Source: Lysobacterales bacterium
GTDB lineage: Bacteria > Pseudomonadota > Gammaproteobacteria > Xanthomonadales > SZUA-5
Assembly (NCBI GenBank): GCA_022844135.1
Contig: JALHMG010000037.1
Span: 1 to 54,992 of the forward strand
Direction of reading: 5' to 3'
Length of the DNA stretch: 54,992 nucleotides
The notes under the pieces are model-generated. The model did not search any database. It saw nothing but the letters and a program-made list of their open reading frames with translations, and was not told the DNA's origin. This document shows positions 28,350 through 34,282 of this stretch, piece after piece (position 1 is the stretch's first letter; each line of letters begins with the position of its first letter). The position numbers and the translations under genes are program-made.

Positions 28350-30716
28350 TCACTCAAACCCATCGGCAAACAAGCGCTCCAGATCGACGACAAATGCGGT
28401 GCCTTCGAGCGGGTTGTCGATGGCTTCGCCGGGGGCGCCGGTGAGGACAGTGCCCTGGTCTAGCGCAACGCTGCGACCGACGCCGCTGCCGTCGATGGGC
28501 GCCGCACTGAGCAGACGCGATTCTTGAGTCCAGTTGCCGCCGGCACGTCGGAACAGGTACACCGCACCAGCGTTTTGATTGCCGGCGACGTCGACGCCAG
28601 TAGCGCCGAGCGCGATGCGGTCGCCGTCGATGGCCACCGCGATTCCGAGCGCATCGCCGGGCCGCGCACCGGCGGCCGTCAATGCGCTCTCCAAGGCGCC
28701 GGTGTTTGCCGAATACACGAAGGCAGCACCAGTGACGATCGGCGGCACGCCATCCTGGAAGGCTCCCGCGACAATGCGCTCGCCATCGGTGTCGACAGAA
28801 AAGCCGAAAGCGCTATTGGCGCTCGGTGCGGGCGCCGTGAGTGTGCGCACAAAAGCGCCGCTGCGCGAGTATTGATATGCCGCGCCAGAAAAATCGACAT
28901 CGCCTGGCGTGGCCGCCGGAGCGCCGACGACAACATGCTCGCCGAGCAACGCCACGCTCGCGCCGAAGGCTGCGCCGCTTTGCGCAACCGGTGCTGCCAG
29001 AGTTGCGCCTTCGGTCCAGACCCCGCCGCTGCGATGGAACAGGTGCGCACGACCGCTATTGCCGAACGCACCGCGCGCTCCAACGAGCGCCGTGTCGCCA
29101 TCGATGTCGACCGCGAATCCGAACAAGTGTCCCTCGTCGCCGAGCGCTGCGGTGAGCTTTCTCTCGAAGACGAAGCTGTTGCCCTGTCGCCTGAATACGT
29201 ATGCCGAGCCTTGATCGGAATTGTTGCCGATGACGTCCCAATAAGCGCCGACGATTAAGCGCTCAGCGTCCAGCGCCACCGCGATGCCGTAGCGCTCTTC
29301 GCTGATTTCATCCGGAGCGGGAATCGCACCGCCGTACCGCCATCCGCTTCCCACCCGACGGAACCAATGCACATTGCCGGCATCGGCGCCCGCCGCTGTG
29401 TCTTCAAGGTACGCTCCGACCACGGCTATATCGCCATGCACGGAAACCGACGTGCCATAGCGGTCGTACATCGCGCCATCCCCAGCGTCGATGCTGCGCA
29501 CCGCCTGCCACGACGCGCCGACCGGCGCGTACACGCGGGCATTGCCCTGTCCACGGTTGTTGCCGACCGTCGCCTGATCGCTGCCAGCAATGAGTTCATC
29601 GCCAACAAAACCGAGCGCGATACCGAAGCGATCGGCGGTACCGCCATTGGCAACATCGATGCGCGTGGGTGTCCCGAGCGCAGTGCCGGCGCGCGAGTAC
29701 GCATATACCGCGCCATCGCCACCGAGCGCTGCGAATGCACCGATCGCCAGACGGGTTGGATTCACGGCCACCGAACTGCCAAAACGCATGCCCGGCGTGC
29801 CGTCTTGGGCCACCACCGTAGTCGCCAGATTCCAGGCGCTGCCATCGAAGCTGAGCAGCAGCGCACGACCGTTATCGCTTCCCGGCGCGCCGACGACTGC
29901 CACGTTGTCGAGCATCGCGATCGCGAAGCCGAGTTCGGTACTGGACGCCGCGCCGATCGCCAGTCGAGATGGCACGCTGAACTGGCTGCCGTTCCAACTT
30001 GCGCCATAAATCGCTCCGCCGCCGGCCTGCGGGGCGCCGATCAGCAATTGCGAACCATTAAAGGCCAGAGCGTGGCCGAACGAAAACTCGCCCGCGCCGG
30101 GCTCGGGCGTCAGCACCTGTTGCCGCGCAAAGCCAGCCGCGCCACGAACGTAAACTTCCACACGGCCGCTTCCAGCGCGCGGAACGCCCACCGCCAGCAC
30201 GTTTCCCGACCCGGCGAGCGCAAAACCATAGCGCTCATCGATCTGCGGAGAGGCGGCCCTGAGTATCTGGCGTTCAACGGCGCCTTCGTTATTGAACGAA
30301 AAAATCTTGACGAGGCCCGCTTCGAGCACCGAATCAACTTCCGCCCGCGGGATGCCGACCGCGATCTGGGTGCCCAGAAACGCCATCGCCGCGCCGGTGT
30401 TGTCGCCATTGCCCACCAAAGGGCCGTTGATCAACTTGGCGATGCGGCTATAGCTGCCGGCTGGGTCGCGACGGTACAAGAGGACCGAGCCGGTCTCGAT
30501 GCCGTTGGCCACGCCCGGCACCACCAGCGTATCGCTGGGGGCGCCGACCGCCAGCCACTCGCCGCTGGTCGCCAGCGCAAAACCGAAGCTGTCGCCCGAG
30601 GCGCCATCGCCAGTCACTGGCGTTGGCAGGCGCGCGCTCAGCTCGATGTCCGCCGCATGTACCTGCGATACGGCCGCTAGCAATAATGTGAAGCCTAGAA
30701 CCCGAGAGAAGTACAT
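28350..30716 (-). CDS. Secreted FG-GAP beta-propeller protein with C-terminal FADGFE tail
   Basis: The 788 residues have a signal peptide, YFSRVLGFTLLLAAVSQVHA. About fourteen FG-GAP-like repeats follow of the form FGxAxAxxGDxxxVGAP, for example SFGFALATSGEWLAVGAP, FGFAVDIDGDTALVGAR and LGIAVAIDGDRIALGAT, enough for two seven-bladed propellers. It ends LERLFADGFE. Most repeats lack the DxDGxxD calcium loop of integrin types. Function is unknown; extracellular binding or structure is plausible. The start codon overlaps that of the divergent GNAT gene (CATG at 30714-30717). ATG at 30722 is an alternative, and no strong ribosome-binding site is visible for either. Confidence 0.88.
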   Translation of the reverse strand: MYFSRVLGFTLLLAAVSQVHAADIELSARLPTPVTGDGASGDSFGFALATSGEWLAVGAPSDTLVVPGVANGIETGSVLLYRRDPAGSYSRIAKLINGPLVGNGDNTGAAMAFLGTQIAVGIPRAEVDSVLEAGLVKIFSFNNEGAVERQILRAASPQIDERYGFALAGSGNVLAVGVPRAGSGRVEVYVRGAAGFARQQVLTPEPGAGEFSFGHALAFNGSQLLIGAPQAGGGAIYGASWNGSQFSVPSRLAIGAASSTELGFAIAMLDNVAVVGAPGSDNGRALLLSFDGSAWNLATTVVAQDGTPGMRFGSSVAVNPTRLAIGAFAALGGDGAVYAYSRAGTALGTPTRIDVANGGTADRFGIALGFVGDELIAGSDQATVGNNRGQGNARVYAPVGASWQAVRSIDAGDGAMYDRYGTSVSVHGDIAVVGAYLEDTAAGADAGNVHWFRRVGSGWRYGGAIPAPDEISEERYGIAVALDAERLIVGAYWDVIGNNSDQGSAYVFRRQGNSFVFERKLTAALGDEGHLFGFAVDIDGDTALVGARGAFGNSGRAHLFHRSGGVWTEGATLAAPVAQSGAAFGASVALLGEHVVVGAPAATPGDVDFSGAAYQYSRSGAFVRTLTAPAPSANSAFGFSVDTDGERIVAGAFQDGVPPIVTGAAFVYSANTGALESALTAAGARPGDALGIAVAIDGDRIALGATGVDVAGNQNAGAVYLFRRAGGNWTQESRLLSAAPIDGSGVGRSVALDQGTVLTGAPGEAIDNPLEGTAFVVDLERLFADGFE

Positions 30717-31191
30717 GCTCATTCGCGAAATCGAGACCCAAGACAATACGGCGATGGCGCGGATCATTCGCCAAGTGATGCCAGAGTTCGGTGCACAAGG
30801 CCCCGGTTTTGCGATCAACGATCCGGAAGTCGATCACATGGCGCAAGCCTACGCGATTGCGCGTCATCGGTATTTCGTCGTGGAAGAGAATGGCACGGTG
30901 CAGGGCGGTGCGGGTATTGCGCCGCTGACTGGCCTTGAGACTACGCATTGCGAGCTGCGCAAGATGTACTTCCTGCCGAGCCTGCGCGGTCGCGGCATCG
31001 GCAGCGCCATGATGGAGCGCTGCCTCGCATTTGCCCGCGAGGCGGGTTACGCGCAGTGCTACCTGGAAACGCTGACCGGCATGGACGAGGCACAGGCGCT
31101 GTATCGGCGCTTCGGGTTCCAGCCCATTCCCGGCGCGCTCGGCGCCACCGGGCATTTTGGTTGCAATCGGTTTTTTCTGTTGGCGTTGTAG
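30715..31191 (+). CDS. GNAT family N-acetyltransferase
   Basis: This 158-residue acetyltransferase begins MLIREIETQDNTAMARIIRQ and has the acetyl-CoA-binding motif MYFLPSLRGRGIGSAMMERC (R/QxxGxG/A is RGRGIG). The end ALYRRFGFQPIPG is the usual C-terminal helix and strand. GAGAGAAG stands well placed before the ATG at 30715. That ATG shares two bases with the start codon of the divergent FG-GAP gene, so each gene's promoter must lie within the other's coding sequence. The acceptor substrate is unknown. Confidence 0.92.
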   Translation: MLIREIETQDNTAMARIIRQVMPEFGAQGPGFAINDPEVDHMAQAYAIARHRYFVVEENGTVQGGAGIAPLTGLETTHCELRKMYFLPSLRGRGIGSAMMERCLAFAREAGYAQCYLETLTGMDEAQALYRRFGFQPIPGALGATGHFGCNRFFLLAL

Positions 31192-31364
31192 CCCGGCCTT
31201 GGAGACTGCCGGCTAGCCCGCATATTTCATGAGGTCGATGACAGCCATCCGAACGTGGTGGAAGATCTGGAAGCGCTGGCGGCACTCGAGCCCGCTACGG
31301 CTTTGCCATCGTCGCGCAACAGCGATTGATCCCTGCCCGATCGCTGAAAAGATAACGTCGCAGT

Positions 31365-31600
31365 AGACGCGGGCCTCGTCGCCGTAGAGAACGCCAAGAT
31401 CAATGTCCACCTGGTCAGGCGCAATGACAAAGCCGAAATCGCAGGCGTCAAATACGAACGGCTCACCGCCGTACTTGCCAACGCATTGCAGGCACTCGCC
31501 TCGCGCGACAGGTCCCGCCGGAGGGGCGATCGCTTTCTCGGGCTTCGCTATCGATCCGTCAAGCAGCGCAATCTGCATCGCTCGCTGCAGGTCGGCGCGT
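31365..31600 (+). pseudogene. Remnant resembling the C-terminus of a tail-fibre/S74 chaperone protein
   Basis: The plus frame reads AVDAGLVAVENAKINVHLVR, then GVKYERLTAVLANALQALAS, before running into arginine-rich sequence and a stop near 31602. YERLTAVL followed by an amphipathic helix is the kind of ending seen in intramolecular chaperone (Peptidase_S74) proteins. No start codon or upstream domain is present in frame. The homology is from pattern memory only. Confidence 0.4.
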
Positions 31601-31644
31601 GAGCAACTGATCCCTGCCCCCGTCCAAATCCGATAGACCCAGTA

Positions 31645-31735
31645 CGAGTTGCGTAGTGGGTTTCATCGCCCGGCGACGCCGAGCAGCCCGCCGCCCCACC
31701 CGCTGTTCGCGGACGTATTCGAGGGCTGAGCGATG
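31645..31735 (+). pseudogene. Remnant of a secreted protein C-terminus with a degenerate FADGFE tail
   Basis: A short frame after a stop at 31638 reads QYELRSGFHRPATPSSPPPH, then PLFADVFEG and a stop. The Ser/Pro-rich linker and LFADVFEG closely resemble the LFADGFE ending of the nearby FG-GAP protein, with Gly replaced by Val. It has no start or body, so it is likely the tail of a lost gene lying before the S74 fragment. Confidence 0.4.
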
Positions 31736-31984
31736 GGCCCGATAGCGGAAGACTCCAAAGCTAACTTCGGTCTCGGCGGCGATGGCAAGTCGATCAGCAC
31801 CGTCGACGCCGATGGTGTCGCACTTGCCGCGATCCAGGGCTTGAACCAGAAGCTCGAGTTTGCGAACACCGAGAACGCTGCCCTGCGCGCCCAATCGGCC
31901 GAAATGGGCGCCCGGCTTGAGCGCCTCAATGCGCTGCTGATTGAACGCACCCATGAGGCGCGCCGAGATGCACCTTCTCAATGA
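31733..31984 (+). pseudogene. Fragment of a tail-fibre domain protein (S74 intramolecular chaperone)
   Basis: The 83-residue frame reads MGPIAEDSKANFGLGGDGKS, then ISTVDADGVALAAIQGLNQK, then a coiled coil of LRAQSAEMGARLERLNALL type. This is the usual end of chaperone-of-endosialidase (Peptidase_S74) proteins: GPMAQDF, then TVDADGVALAAIQGL, then a coiled coil. The body that the chaperone would trim from is missing, so I call it a degenerate gene end rather than an active small protein. Confidence 0.6.
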
Positions 31985-32198
31985 AGTTTGGCGGCAACCA
32001 GTAGCGCTTGGCGCGCAATTGGCGCCACTGTTATTGATCCACACTCCTCAAGCTGCGAGCGCGATGTCGCAACTGAGCTTGCTGAGTATTTGCCCGGAGT
32101 CATCGTCCAGCGTGCTGAACCCATCCATGCATGGGATCTCCAGCGAGCGCCTTGCGCGATACACTGCTTAGCAAGCGAATCTCGCCTTTGGACCAAGC

Positions 32199-33365
32199 AT
32201 GCGCGCGACTCATCTTTTGTGGGCTTGTGCACTCGCCGCTGCAGCGCTGTTGAAGAGCGGATTTGCGTTCGCGACCTGGTCGATTACAGTGATCGACGAA
32301 GACACTGGCGAGGTGGTGGTGGCGGCGGCTACCTGCGTTACCAATTTCGACTTGCTGCGGGCTGCTGGGGTGATTCGGGTGGGTAGCGGCGGCGGCGTTG
32401 CGCAGGCAGCGGTGGACTCCAGCGGCGCGCGTCGCCAACTGATCGCCAATGCACTGAGCAGTGGCGCGACGGCTGTCGATATCGCCAACCAGTTGGCTGC
32501 GTTGAGCGGCGCGGGGTCGGCCCAACACACACTGGTCGCGCTCGGTCTGGTGGCCGACAGTGCGGTCCATTCAGGAAGCAATGTGCTGCGCGACGCTCCA
32601 ACGCGCTTTGGCCAAGTCGGCGAGTTGCACTATGCGATCGCGGGGAACGTCCTCGCAAACAATATGATCGCGATGCTGGCCGAGAATCGCCTGGCGCAAT
32701 CTGCCGGGCCCTTGGTCTCGCGCGTTCAGCAGGCGATGCGCGTTGCGCGCGATGCCGGCGGCGATGCGCGCTGCTCTTGCACCAGTTGGAATAGCGCAAC
32801 CGGTTGCCAGGGACTGATTCCCAACTTCGCCAAGGCAGCGCATATCGGATTCTTGCTTGCGACACGCGTCGGCGATATCGACGACCCTCTGTGCAACAGC
32901 GCCGGGTGCGCCGACGGCGACTACTGGTTGCGTATCAACATCGCCAACCAGAGCGCGGCGGCCGTCGATCCGGTGTTGCAGATCGACGCGGGTTTGGCCA
33001 GCGCACTCGATGGGCTCCGCGGACGCGCCGACGCGATCGCATCGGGCGTCGAGTTTGTTGGTCCACCGTGGGCGCTGTTGCTGACCCCGCGCGATGTATT
33101 CGGCGACGCGGTATCACTTCCGGCAGGTGCGGTTCGCGTTATCGCAGTTGACTCCAGCTTGCAGCCAGCAACACCGGTGAGTCTCGCCGATGGACGAATT
33201 CGCGTTGCACTCGATGGCGATGACGGCGGCAACGAGCAACGATTTCGCGTTGAGCTGGACGCGCCTGCGCTGCGCATCGTACTGCCACCCAAACGCACTT
33301 CTCTGGCGCTTGCGGTGTTTGCCAGTGGATTCGAGTCTTCGAAATCTCTGGCAACTGCCCATTGA
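32199..33365 (+). CDS. Secreted DUF1028-like protein
   Basis: This 388-residue protein has a signal peptide (RATHLLWACALAAAALLKSG, cleaved near FAFA). The N-terminal half then resembles DUF1028, an Ntn-hydrolase-like family: ATWSITVIDEDTGEVVVAAA, TCVTNF, GVAQAAVDSSGARRQLIANA and LHYAIAGNVLANNMIAMLAE. The C-terminal half (about 245-370) is an unassigned beta-rich region. It ends AVFASGFESSKSLATAH, so a GFE tail like that of its neighbours is followed by nine extra residues, perhaps through loss of an earlier stop. No function is established for the family. Confidence 0.75.
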   Translation: MRATHLLWACALAAAALLKSGFAFATWSITVIDEDTGEVVVAAATCVTNFDLLRAAGVIRVGSGGGVAQAAVDSSGARRQLIANALSSGATAVDIANQLAALSGAGSAQHTLVALGLVADSAVHSGSNVLRDAPTRFGQVGELHYAIAGNVLANNMIAMLAENRLAQSAGPLVSRVQQAMRVARDAGGDARCSCTSWNSATGCQGLIPNFAKAAHIGFLLATRVGDIDDPLCNSAGCADGDYWLRINIANQSAAAVDPVLQIDAGLASALDGLRGRADAIASGVEFVGPPWALLLTPRDVFGDAVSLPAGAVRVIAVDSSLQPATPVSLADGRIRVALDGDDGGNEQRFRVELDAPALRIVLPPKRTSLALAVFASGFESSKSLATAH

Positions 33366-33563
33366 CTTGATCGGCGCTCGACAACGGGCTGCCTCATCAC
33401 ACAGCGAGTCGGGCCGGTGGATCGGACGTCGCACCAGGACCGCCAGACCGATGGCGCTCAGTGGACACGGCGTCAGGCCATGGCGCAAGTCACGCGCGTG
33501 GCGTCCTGGCGGTTACTTGATCGATACCGGGTATGTCAGGTTGACATCTAAACGGAGCCGATC

Positions 33564-34282
33564 ATGACCTACCATCGCGCCGCAGCCAGTGCGCTGCTGT
33601 TGTTGCTCGCCGGGAGCTCGGCGCCGGCGGCAGCTTGGTGCTGGATCAAGACACCGCCGGCGTGCCCGGCGCCAACGAAACCGACGACGAGTTTGGTTCA
33701 TCGCTGGCGGCTGGCGATTTCGATGGCGACGGTGGCGACGATCTGGCGATTGGAGTACCTCTGGAAGATATCGGCAGCGGATTCCAGGACGGCATGGTGA
33801 TTATTGCCTACGGCGACCCCAACGGCGTGAATCGACTCGACCGCTTCATCGCCATTGACCTCGTCGACGCTGGTCTCGCAACCGGTGGCACCTCCGGCGC
33901 CGACAGTTTCGGTCAGGGCCTGGCCACCGGCGACTTTAACGGCGATGGCTTCGCCGATCTGGCCGTGGGCGCACCGGGTGGCCCGTCGGGTCTAGGCGGC
34001 ATCGAAAGCGGCGCGGTGGTGGTGTTCTACGGTGCCGCGAGCGGATTGAGCGCCGCGCGCAGGCAGCTCTGGCATATGGACATTGCCGGCGTGGCCGGCG
34101 CCGCGCGCGCGGGCGATCTGTTTGGCAGTGCGTTGACGAATGGCGACTTCAACGACGATCGCGTCAGCGATTTGCTGATCGGTATTCCGCGTCGCGACTC
34201 GACCGGCTTGAGCGACAACATCGGCGGCGTGCTGGTGCTCTACGGCAGCTTACCGACTTTGCTGATCAATGGCTTCGAATGA
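33564..34282 (+). pseudogene. Frameshifted secreted FG-GAP repeat protein
   Basis: A signal peptide, MTYHRAAASALLLLLAGSSA followed by PAAA, begins at 33564 after GGAG. Around 33630-33640 the coding signal moves to another frame. That frame reads LVLDQDTAGVPGANETDDEF and carries three calcium-loop FG-GAP repeats (DFDGDGGDDLAIGVP, DFNGDGFADLAVGAP, DFNDDRVSDLLIGIP), ending LLINGFE at 34282. The signal peptide and the body thus lie in different frames, one indel apart. This is either a real inactivating mutation or a sequencing error. The intact form would be a secreted integrin-like propeller. Confidence 0.75.

Follow-up and report, generated by a model that had tools for sequence, protein, structure and literature searches.

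The window analysed here, the whole 54,992-nucleotide contig JALHMG010000037.1 from assembly GCA_022844135.1 of a Lysobacterales bacterium, contains a segment (positions 28,350–34,282) in which several predicted exported proteins finish in variants of the same few residues, F-x-x-G-F-E. What this ending, hereafter the GFE tag, is for is the question raised by the locus. A preliminary description of the segment had suggested a route of sorting, secretion or processing and knew of no described system behind it. We likewise infer that the tag marks a route of this kind, and no account of the ending was found in open-licence PubMed Central text, among the matches listed. The analysis below establishes that the GFE tag is a motif common to otherwise unrelated exported proteins.

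A nine-residue motif near the ends of unrelated exported proteins

The 5.34 Mb genome that includes the window encodes 58 exact F-x-x-G-F-E-stop endings, against two for the reversed-pattern control, which places the tail beyond chance. These matches are spread over 36 of the 75 contigs, and their clustering in the window is incidental. All 58 C-termini were read. At the positions left free by the search pattern, L, V, I or M occupies position −7 in 52 tails, D or E position −9 in 36, A or R position −5 in 48, and N or D position −4 in 51; residues farther upstream of −9 show no clear preference. The resulting consensus, [DE]-x-[LVI]-F-[AR]-[ND]-G-F-E, spans nine residues. The codons used at the fixed positions F, G and E are like those of the genome at large; because the free positions are constrained while codon choice is genome-like, the data point to selection acting on the tag at the level of the protein rather than of DNA or RNA. 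In four paralogues of one small tail protein from this genome, the D, both F residues and the E of the tag are invariant and the G varies once; two of the four lack the exact ending. In none of the 58 C-termini is the tag followed by a helix and a basic cluster, in line with the earlier remark that the tail is unlike sortase-type signals in this respect.

The position of the tag was analysed with a stricter pattern requiring a purine-purine-pyrimidine (RRY) codon, encoding N, D, S or G, ahead of the glycine. This pattern gave 53 terminal matches. A non-terminal scan, which covered tags followed by a codon beginning with A, C or G but none beginning with T, gave 31 more, compared with 5 for its control. 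Among the 31 non-terminal matches, 17 are in frames that end within 18 residues of the tag, and four sit 95–111 residues from the end, after DUF11-like stretches. Three lie shortly after an apparent signal peptide (loci L135, L156 and L161), and five are deep in long frames, apparently in linkers as judged by eye (L136, L138, L143, L148 and L162). Of the remaining two, L144 has 75 residues after the tag and L158 looks like a chance frame. Under this single pattern, 70 of 84 matches are therefore at the C-terminus or within 18 residues of it. The preliminary description had treated the tail as a C-terminal feature, which is mostly what it is; near-N-terminal and internal copies exist too, and on their account strict C-terminal recognition was rejected. 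The GFE tag is thus strongly end-preferring, yet not strictly terminal.

Two kinds of unusual arrangement were seen among the tagged proteins. Locus L099 (genome G014) bears two tandem GFE tags at one C-terminus, FQDGFEGARTGVVFADGFE. The DUF11-like proteins that run 95–111 residues beyond the tag are those of L145, L146, L151 and L153; the extra ends of the last three are alike (SGSFVLP..ALR.ALD) and perhaps represent an unnamed C-terminal domain.

The bodies of the carrier proteins are diverse. With the tail removed, the 52 carriers of at least 80 residues (six of the 58 are shorter and were left out) fall into 29 BLAST groups, the largest of which have nine and seven members. The preliminary description had already called the bodies unrelated and had considered that the motif might show no C-terminal preference or be restricted to direct paralogues; the end-preference and the 29 groups speak against both. 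Pfam recognised 38 families among 43 carriers, four of the 47 called tail genes (three shorter than 150 residues, one truncated) having been left out. The 25 of the 38 families that were displayed include FG-GAP, Sortilin-Vps10, beta helix, DUF11, DUF4394, subtilase (S8 peptidase), M28 peptidase, Endonuclease I, CotH, Big, PKD and fn3. Signal peptides, which the preliminary description had seen on the intact genes of the segment, were read by eye in both of these genes and are enriched genome-wide: by a crude rule rather than a published predictor, 41 of 50 tail proteins possess one, compared with 99 of 284 other genes (p 5e-10; genes under 80 residues and genes open at a locus edge were left out). 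The carriers are mostly not lipoproteins.

A survey of 400 kb in 20 hand-picked stretches, an unrepresentative sample that holds none of the 58 exact matches, found one of 38 soluble exported proteins (at least 150 residues, crude rule) tagged, one residue from its end. In the same stretches, a gene that fails the exported-protein rule has its tag three residues short of the end, and PLMADGFETRP is a variant end.

Restriction to one order

The order Lysobacterales is synonymous with Xanthomonadales. Within it, at least one match to the tail was found in 52 of 61 genomes, comprising 60 relatives and the genome analysed here, with a range of 0 to 66. Of 60 loci fetched inside the order, five are short or doubtful (L091, L092, L101, L227 and L229) and the others end long frames. 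Sampling across the class gave 369 genomes, 364 of them from outside the order; 47 matches occur in 45 of these 364, three at most in any one. The 30 of these 47 that were fetched (L054–L083) all end frames of 4–60 residues. A scan for G-L-F-A-N-G-F-E-stop in one genome per species (84,980 species) returned 14 stretches. Thirteen of them are in records of Lysobacterales, Rhodanobacteraceae, Thermomonas or Pseudofulvimonas gallinarii DSM 21944 and have frames of at least 115 residues; the fourteenth, from Raineya orbicola, ends a 15-residue frame. Pseudofulvimonas is assigned to Lysobacterales, and Thermomonas presumably belongs there as well. As far as sampled, the GFE tag is confined to one order.

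Tail-rich genomes carry exosortase H and, nearly always, a second pseudopilin set

Tails were counted in 258 genomes of the order that are at least 90% complete and compared with the presence of gene families in the same genomes, the partner profiling covering chosen candidate genes. The preliminary description had envisaged a specific peptidase or transporter family co-occurring with the tail. No dedicated new peptidase emerged, nor was one found among the neighbours of tail genes in 44 loci of the genome analysed here; among the candidates, co-occurrence was detected with exosortase H (XrtH) and with a second set of type II secretion pseudopilin genes, GspGHIJK.

The extra set was followed through its GspK, using a profile (A1) built from six sequences with a threshold of E <1e-60, to which five genomes were added by hand (G054, G429, G449, G469 (split genes) and G513, the last at E 1.7e-58, just under the cut). 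This GspK is present in 61 of the 63 genomes with at least three tails (hereafter tail-rich), and only 2 of the 172 genomes without it reach that number. The association persists when stratified by family (chi-square 101). In families f2 and f12, 2 of 83 and 10 of 80 genomes, respectively, are tail-rich, and all 12 have the extra set, which occurs in 2 of the other 151 genomes of these families. Over 81 genera, the set and the tails are both present in 25, the set alone in 7, the tails alone in 1 and neither in 48 (p 1.5e-13).

XrtH, identified with TIGR04177, is present in all 63 tail-rich genomes, including both that lack the GspK set, and none of the 150 XrtH-negative genomes has even two tails. 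The corresponding counts for the 81 genera are 26, 17, 0 and 38 (p 5.8e-10). When the two partners are considered jointly, tail-rich genomes make up 61 of the 84 with both XrtH and the GspK set, 2 of the 24 with XrtH only, none of the 2 with the set only and none of the 148 with neither. Thus, among XrtH-bearing genomes, the GspK set still predicts tails (61 of 84 vs 2 of 24). The general exosortase profile PF09721 was set aside as too insensitive for XrtH, detecting 63 genomes at E 1e-6 compared with 108 for TIGR04177; at that threshold it shows a weaker link, covering 31 of the 63 tail-rich genomes.

In the genome analysed here, XrtH is encoded at C30:17618-18088, among housekeeping-like genes. 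In 20 genomes, no exact tag was labelled in the called genes of 7–10 kb stretches around XrtH (our own, imperfect gene calls). The main type II operon (L165), which we take to be Xps, reads GspC-E-F-G-H-I-J-K-L-M-N-D, an order assigned from the positions and sizes of the genes and from BLAST comparison with other loci; GspG was placed separately. The extra set is at L164:10037-12949, with Pfam matches to T2SSG (4e-40), T2SSJ (3e-23) and T2SSK_1st (6e-31); the gene calls lack its GspI. The set, with or without GspLMN, is beside genes that appear bioA- or rsmE-like in 34 of the 47 loci read.

Other markers of type II secretion were tried and abandoned. High-scoring GspG was dropped in favour of GspK, since equally high scores are reached in f2 by genomes that have a different type II system. 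The idea that an orphan GspGHIJK set without GspLMN is the tail-specific partner was rejected as well: the tail-rich genomes G002, G012, G022 and G477 keep LMN, and tail-free f10 genomes carry the whole set too.

Several further observations concern these systems. In six genomes, the main type II operon is bordered on one side by the gene of an exported protein (361–539 residues where seen), possibly a dedicated cargo or accessory; the copy of the genome analysed here (L165:2-1084) is without a Pfam match, and its homologues are in L167, L169, L171, L173 and L178. In family f10, four proteins (L205, L207, L208 and L176) combine weak multihaem-cytochrome matches with IPTL-like helix-and-arginine ends, and their genes share a stretch with the second type II set; two of the four weakly match midcut-by-XrtH, the NCBIfam family NF033207. 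Genome G026 of family f9, 100% complete in two contigs, is unlike its family in that it is without a GspG match at 1e-20, XrtH or tails under the stricter pattern.

What might read the tag?

We tentatively favour, while holding it somewhat short of probable, the explanation that the GFE tag is a docking or anchoring motif that acts after Sec export in a route using type II secretion, with the alternative GspGHIJK set as the best candidate component. The carrier proteins would leave the cytoplasm by Sec; the exposed tag would then serve as a handle recognised by a component of the envelope, and the folded carrier would either cross the outer membrane or stay attached to the surface. Type II secretion with the alternative pseudopilins is the foremost candidate for this route. 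The carriers fit type II cargo, possessing a signal peptide and no further membrane helices as judged by eye, except that those of L115 and L044 look, also by eye, N-terminally membrane-anchored. A cut-and-anchor mechanism does not apply as such, because the GFE tag has no helix. Besides the co-occurrence with the set, the preference for type II secretion draws on an analogy with the GlyGly-CTERM and MYXO-CTERM surface proteins, which are reported to cross the outer membrane by this system (PMC13393428; PMC11980579; PMC3237569). In a bolder version, the tip of the alternative GspGHIJK pseudopilus of Lysobacterales would bind folded GFE-tagged proteins in the periplasm and deliver them to the cell surface. 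The tag, a portable motif that can serve at either protein end, would then be the first linear address label known to be read by a type II pseudopilus; we regard this version as conceivable, with the chances against it.

A number of observations weigh against a role for the GspGHIJK set. The association is one of co-occurrence among lineages that share ancestry, and the tails and partner genes may be ancestral traits lost together; the losses in f2, in f12 and in the f9 genome G026 may amount to three or more concordant events. XrtH, by covering all 63 tail-rich genomes, fits the presence of tails slightly better than GspK does. The GspK cut-off was picked after the scores had been seen, and without the five hand-added genomes the count falls to 60 of 63. 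Both tail-rich genomes without the set, G457 and G038, have many tails: eight in G457 (three of the eight loci were read and have frames of at least 181 residues) and 14 in G038, whose assembly is in 420 contigs. Conversely, 25 genomes have the set yet fewer than three tails; 21 of them are in f10, where 21 of 25 genomes carry both XrtH and the set and still have fewer than three tails. The genera of f8 are mixed, with one having both set and tails, one the set only, one the tails only and nine neither. In the 47 loci read around the extra set, no exact tag was labelled beside it (our own, imperfect gene calls), and one end reading VFANSFE is about 4 kb from the set in G011. The GspG family is near-universal (251 of 258 genomes), and a high-scoring GspG (E <1e-42) occurs in 26 f2 genomes, only two of which are tail-rich, so type II secretion in general, or the possession of any second system, does not explain the tails. 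Structure prediction for the small tail family, from an alignment of four, was uninformative (mean predicted local distance difference test score, pLDDT, 52.8).

The tag could alternatively bind a dedicated receptor at the surface or in the periplasm, for adhesion, for docking to a glycan or protein, or for chemical modification of a residue, without itself being an export signal. We consider this a realistic but improbable alternative. The occurrence of tags near the mature N-terminus and internally as well as at the C-terminus would suit a portable binding or modification site, as would the tandem tags of L099. Against it stand the 70 of 84 matches at the C-terminus or within 18 residues of it, and no receptor was found in a partner search limited to chosen candidates.

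Doubtful, although fed by the presence of XrtH in every tail-rich genome, is the proposal that the GFE tag, despite the absence of a helix, is recognised or processed by XrtH or by a factor that works with it. In addition to the co-occurrence, the domain ahead of the IPTL-type end of L052:5942-7204 shares 35% identity, over 88 residues, with a domain found ahead of a GFE tag in L103. However, XrtH has helix-bearing targets of its own, presumably the IPTL-CTERM proteins, and the genome analysed here holds such an end: that of L052:5942-7204, a VPTL motif followed by a helix and arginines, which we take to be of the IPTL-like type. Exosortase signals consist of a motif, a helix and a basic cluster, whereas the GFE tag has neither of the last two and is sometimes near the N-terminus. 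Moreover, 45 of the 108 XrtH-bearing genomes have fewer than three tails, including 21 of 24 in f8 and 21 of 25 in f10, and the four f10 proteins with IPTL-like ends have no BLAST match among 125 tail proteins.

It is very improbable that the tag is a functionless relic, spread by paralogy or by recombination between the ends of genes. In favour of a relic, six of the 58 tails are on frames shorter than 80 residues, the window holds a decayed copy, the VELIGEVVDG stretch ahead of the L026 tag is shared with L027, and 23 of the 52 longer carriers can be counted as extra members of their BLAST groups. Against this, codon usage at the fixed positions is genome-like and the free positions are constrained, and homologues elsewhere keep the tag while the linker differs (L009 vs L277 and L278, a biased comparison in that all were found by the tag). 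Finally, chance or composition is refuted by the counts: the matches in 45 of the 364 genomes from other orders lie, wherever read, in very short frames, and control counts in tail-rich genomes are 0–3.

Tagged genes of the window

The segment that raised the question contains two intact tagged genes, one with a shifted frame and two remnants. On the minus strand, 28,350–30,767 encodes an exported protein with FG-GAP_2 repeats (Pfam E 7.7e-78, 11 stretches) and the C-terminus ...VDLERLFADGFE-stop. Its ending, an exact tag, was described correctly: ERLFADGFE and the stop codon occupy 28,350–28,379, with the core match at 28,350–28,370. On the plus strand, the exported DUF1028-like protein (32,199–33,365; Pfam DUF1028 E 2.8e-11) has, as reported, a near-terminal tag, FASGFE (33,318–33,335), after which come nine residues (SSKSLATAH) and the stop. 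A third gene (33,564–34,282, plus strand; FG-GAP E 1.2e-23) had been described as frameshifted, and indeed its signal-peptide-like start (from 33,564) and its FG-GAP body (33,635–34,282) are in different frames. It finishes TLLINGFE, a variant in which L replaces F as the first motif residue, with LINGFE and the stop at 34,262–34,282. An NCBIfam scan of the three window proteins found no model matching the tail.

The preliminary description also noted a remnant ending LFADVFEG, which is real; it had been placed at 31,709–31,735, slightly off its position of about 31,703–31,729. The frame, from 31,637 to 31,729 on the plus strand, reads ...YELRSGFHRPATPSSPPPHPLFADVFEG-stop and resembles by eye the end of a small tail protein, the paralogue L038:6055-6342 (...YELRAGFHRPAMSAQLPDPLFAKAFEG), which finishes LFAKAFEG. 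Because its end matches this paralogue, the remnant is a decayed gene rather than a chance frame. Directly downstream, 31,733–31,984 (plus strand) is the C-terminal remnant of a protein of ~670–745 residues that elsewhere accompanies the small tail protein, as assigned by a BLAST group with proteins of L050, L053 and L133; its end is presumably intramolecular-chaperone-like. The gene pair, a small (90–103 residues), repeat-bearing tail protein adjoining the ~670–745-residue protein with a chaperone-like coiled end, recurs at L050:819-3363, L053:7487-9815 and L133:7529-10011, and the decayed window copy covers 31,637–31,984.

Besides this larger partner, the recurrent tail-less neighbours of tagged genes include kinase-like proteins and sigma-like regulators, all named from their sequences. 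Twelve kinase-like proteins near GFE-tagged genes form one BLAST group, whose members include L037:6282-9000, L040:5452-8313, L046:1045-4069 and L130:6827-10387; three of the twelve adjoin a sigma-factor-like gene.

Comparison with known systems

Helix-free and very short sorting elements are known from other bacteria. The C-terminal domain of type IX secretion cargo is, as the GFE tag appears to be, a helix-free sorting element shared by many exported proteins that are otherwise unrelated; it belongs to another phylum and folds into a domain of about 70–80 residues, compared with nine residues in the tag. In Bacteroidota, surface exposure of lipoproteins is decided by an export signal that is likewise a very short linear motif of the mature protein. 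That signal adjoins the lipidated N-terminal cysteine, whereas the GFE tag usually sits at the C-terminus and its carriers are for the most part not lipoproteins.

The C-terminal signals of the PEP, IPTL, GlyGly and LPXTG types all include a helix and a basic cluster, both absent from the GFE tag. IPTL-CTERM proteins and XrtH resemble the present system in that XrtH is found in every tail-rich genome of the 258 and that one shared domain precedes either type of end; the IPTL signature, the helix and the basic residues, exemplified by L052, have no counterpart in the tag. GlyGly-CTERM and its rhombosortase likewise involve a short C-terminal signal, found in species that have type II secretion on several unrelated signal-peptide proteins of each genome (PMC3237569, PMC13393428). 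The GlyGly-CTERM signal differs in combining its motif with a transmembrane helix and a basic cluster and in being cut by a rhomboid protease; it is reported to occur up to thirteen times per genome (PMC3237569), compared with 58 GFE tags here, which can moreover be near-N-terminal or internal. MYXO-CTERM and myxosortase, as described in PMC11980579, also comprise a lineage-specific tag on dozens of proteins per genome and surface localisation by type II secretion, with an invariant cysteine, a helix and an arginine-rich end that set them apart from the tag.

Recruitment of type II cargo has been called elusive, and in one substrate is ascribed to a composite of flexible loops (PMC7949064). 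If the GFE tag is indeed read by type II secretion, its compactness would open cargo choice to tests with reporter fusions and short peptides. Should something else read it, the tag would still represent an undescribed route of protein labelling across much of a bacterial order. It would also offer an initial clue to proteins for which nothing but a domain, such as FG-GAP or DUF11, has been recognised. In sum, the GFE tag has the look of a label, so far undescribed, that addresses or attaches proteins exported from the cell.

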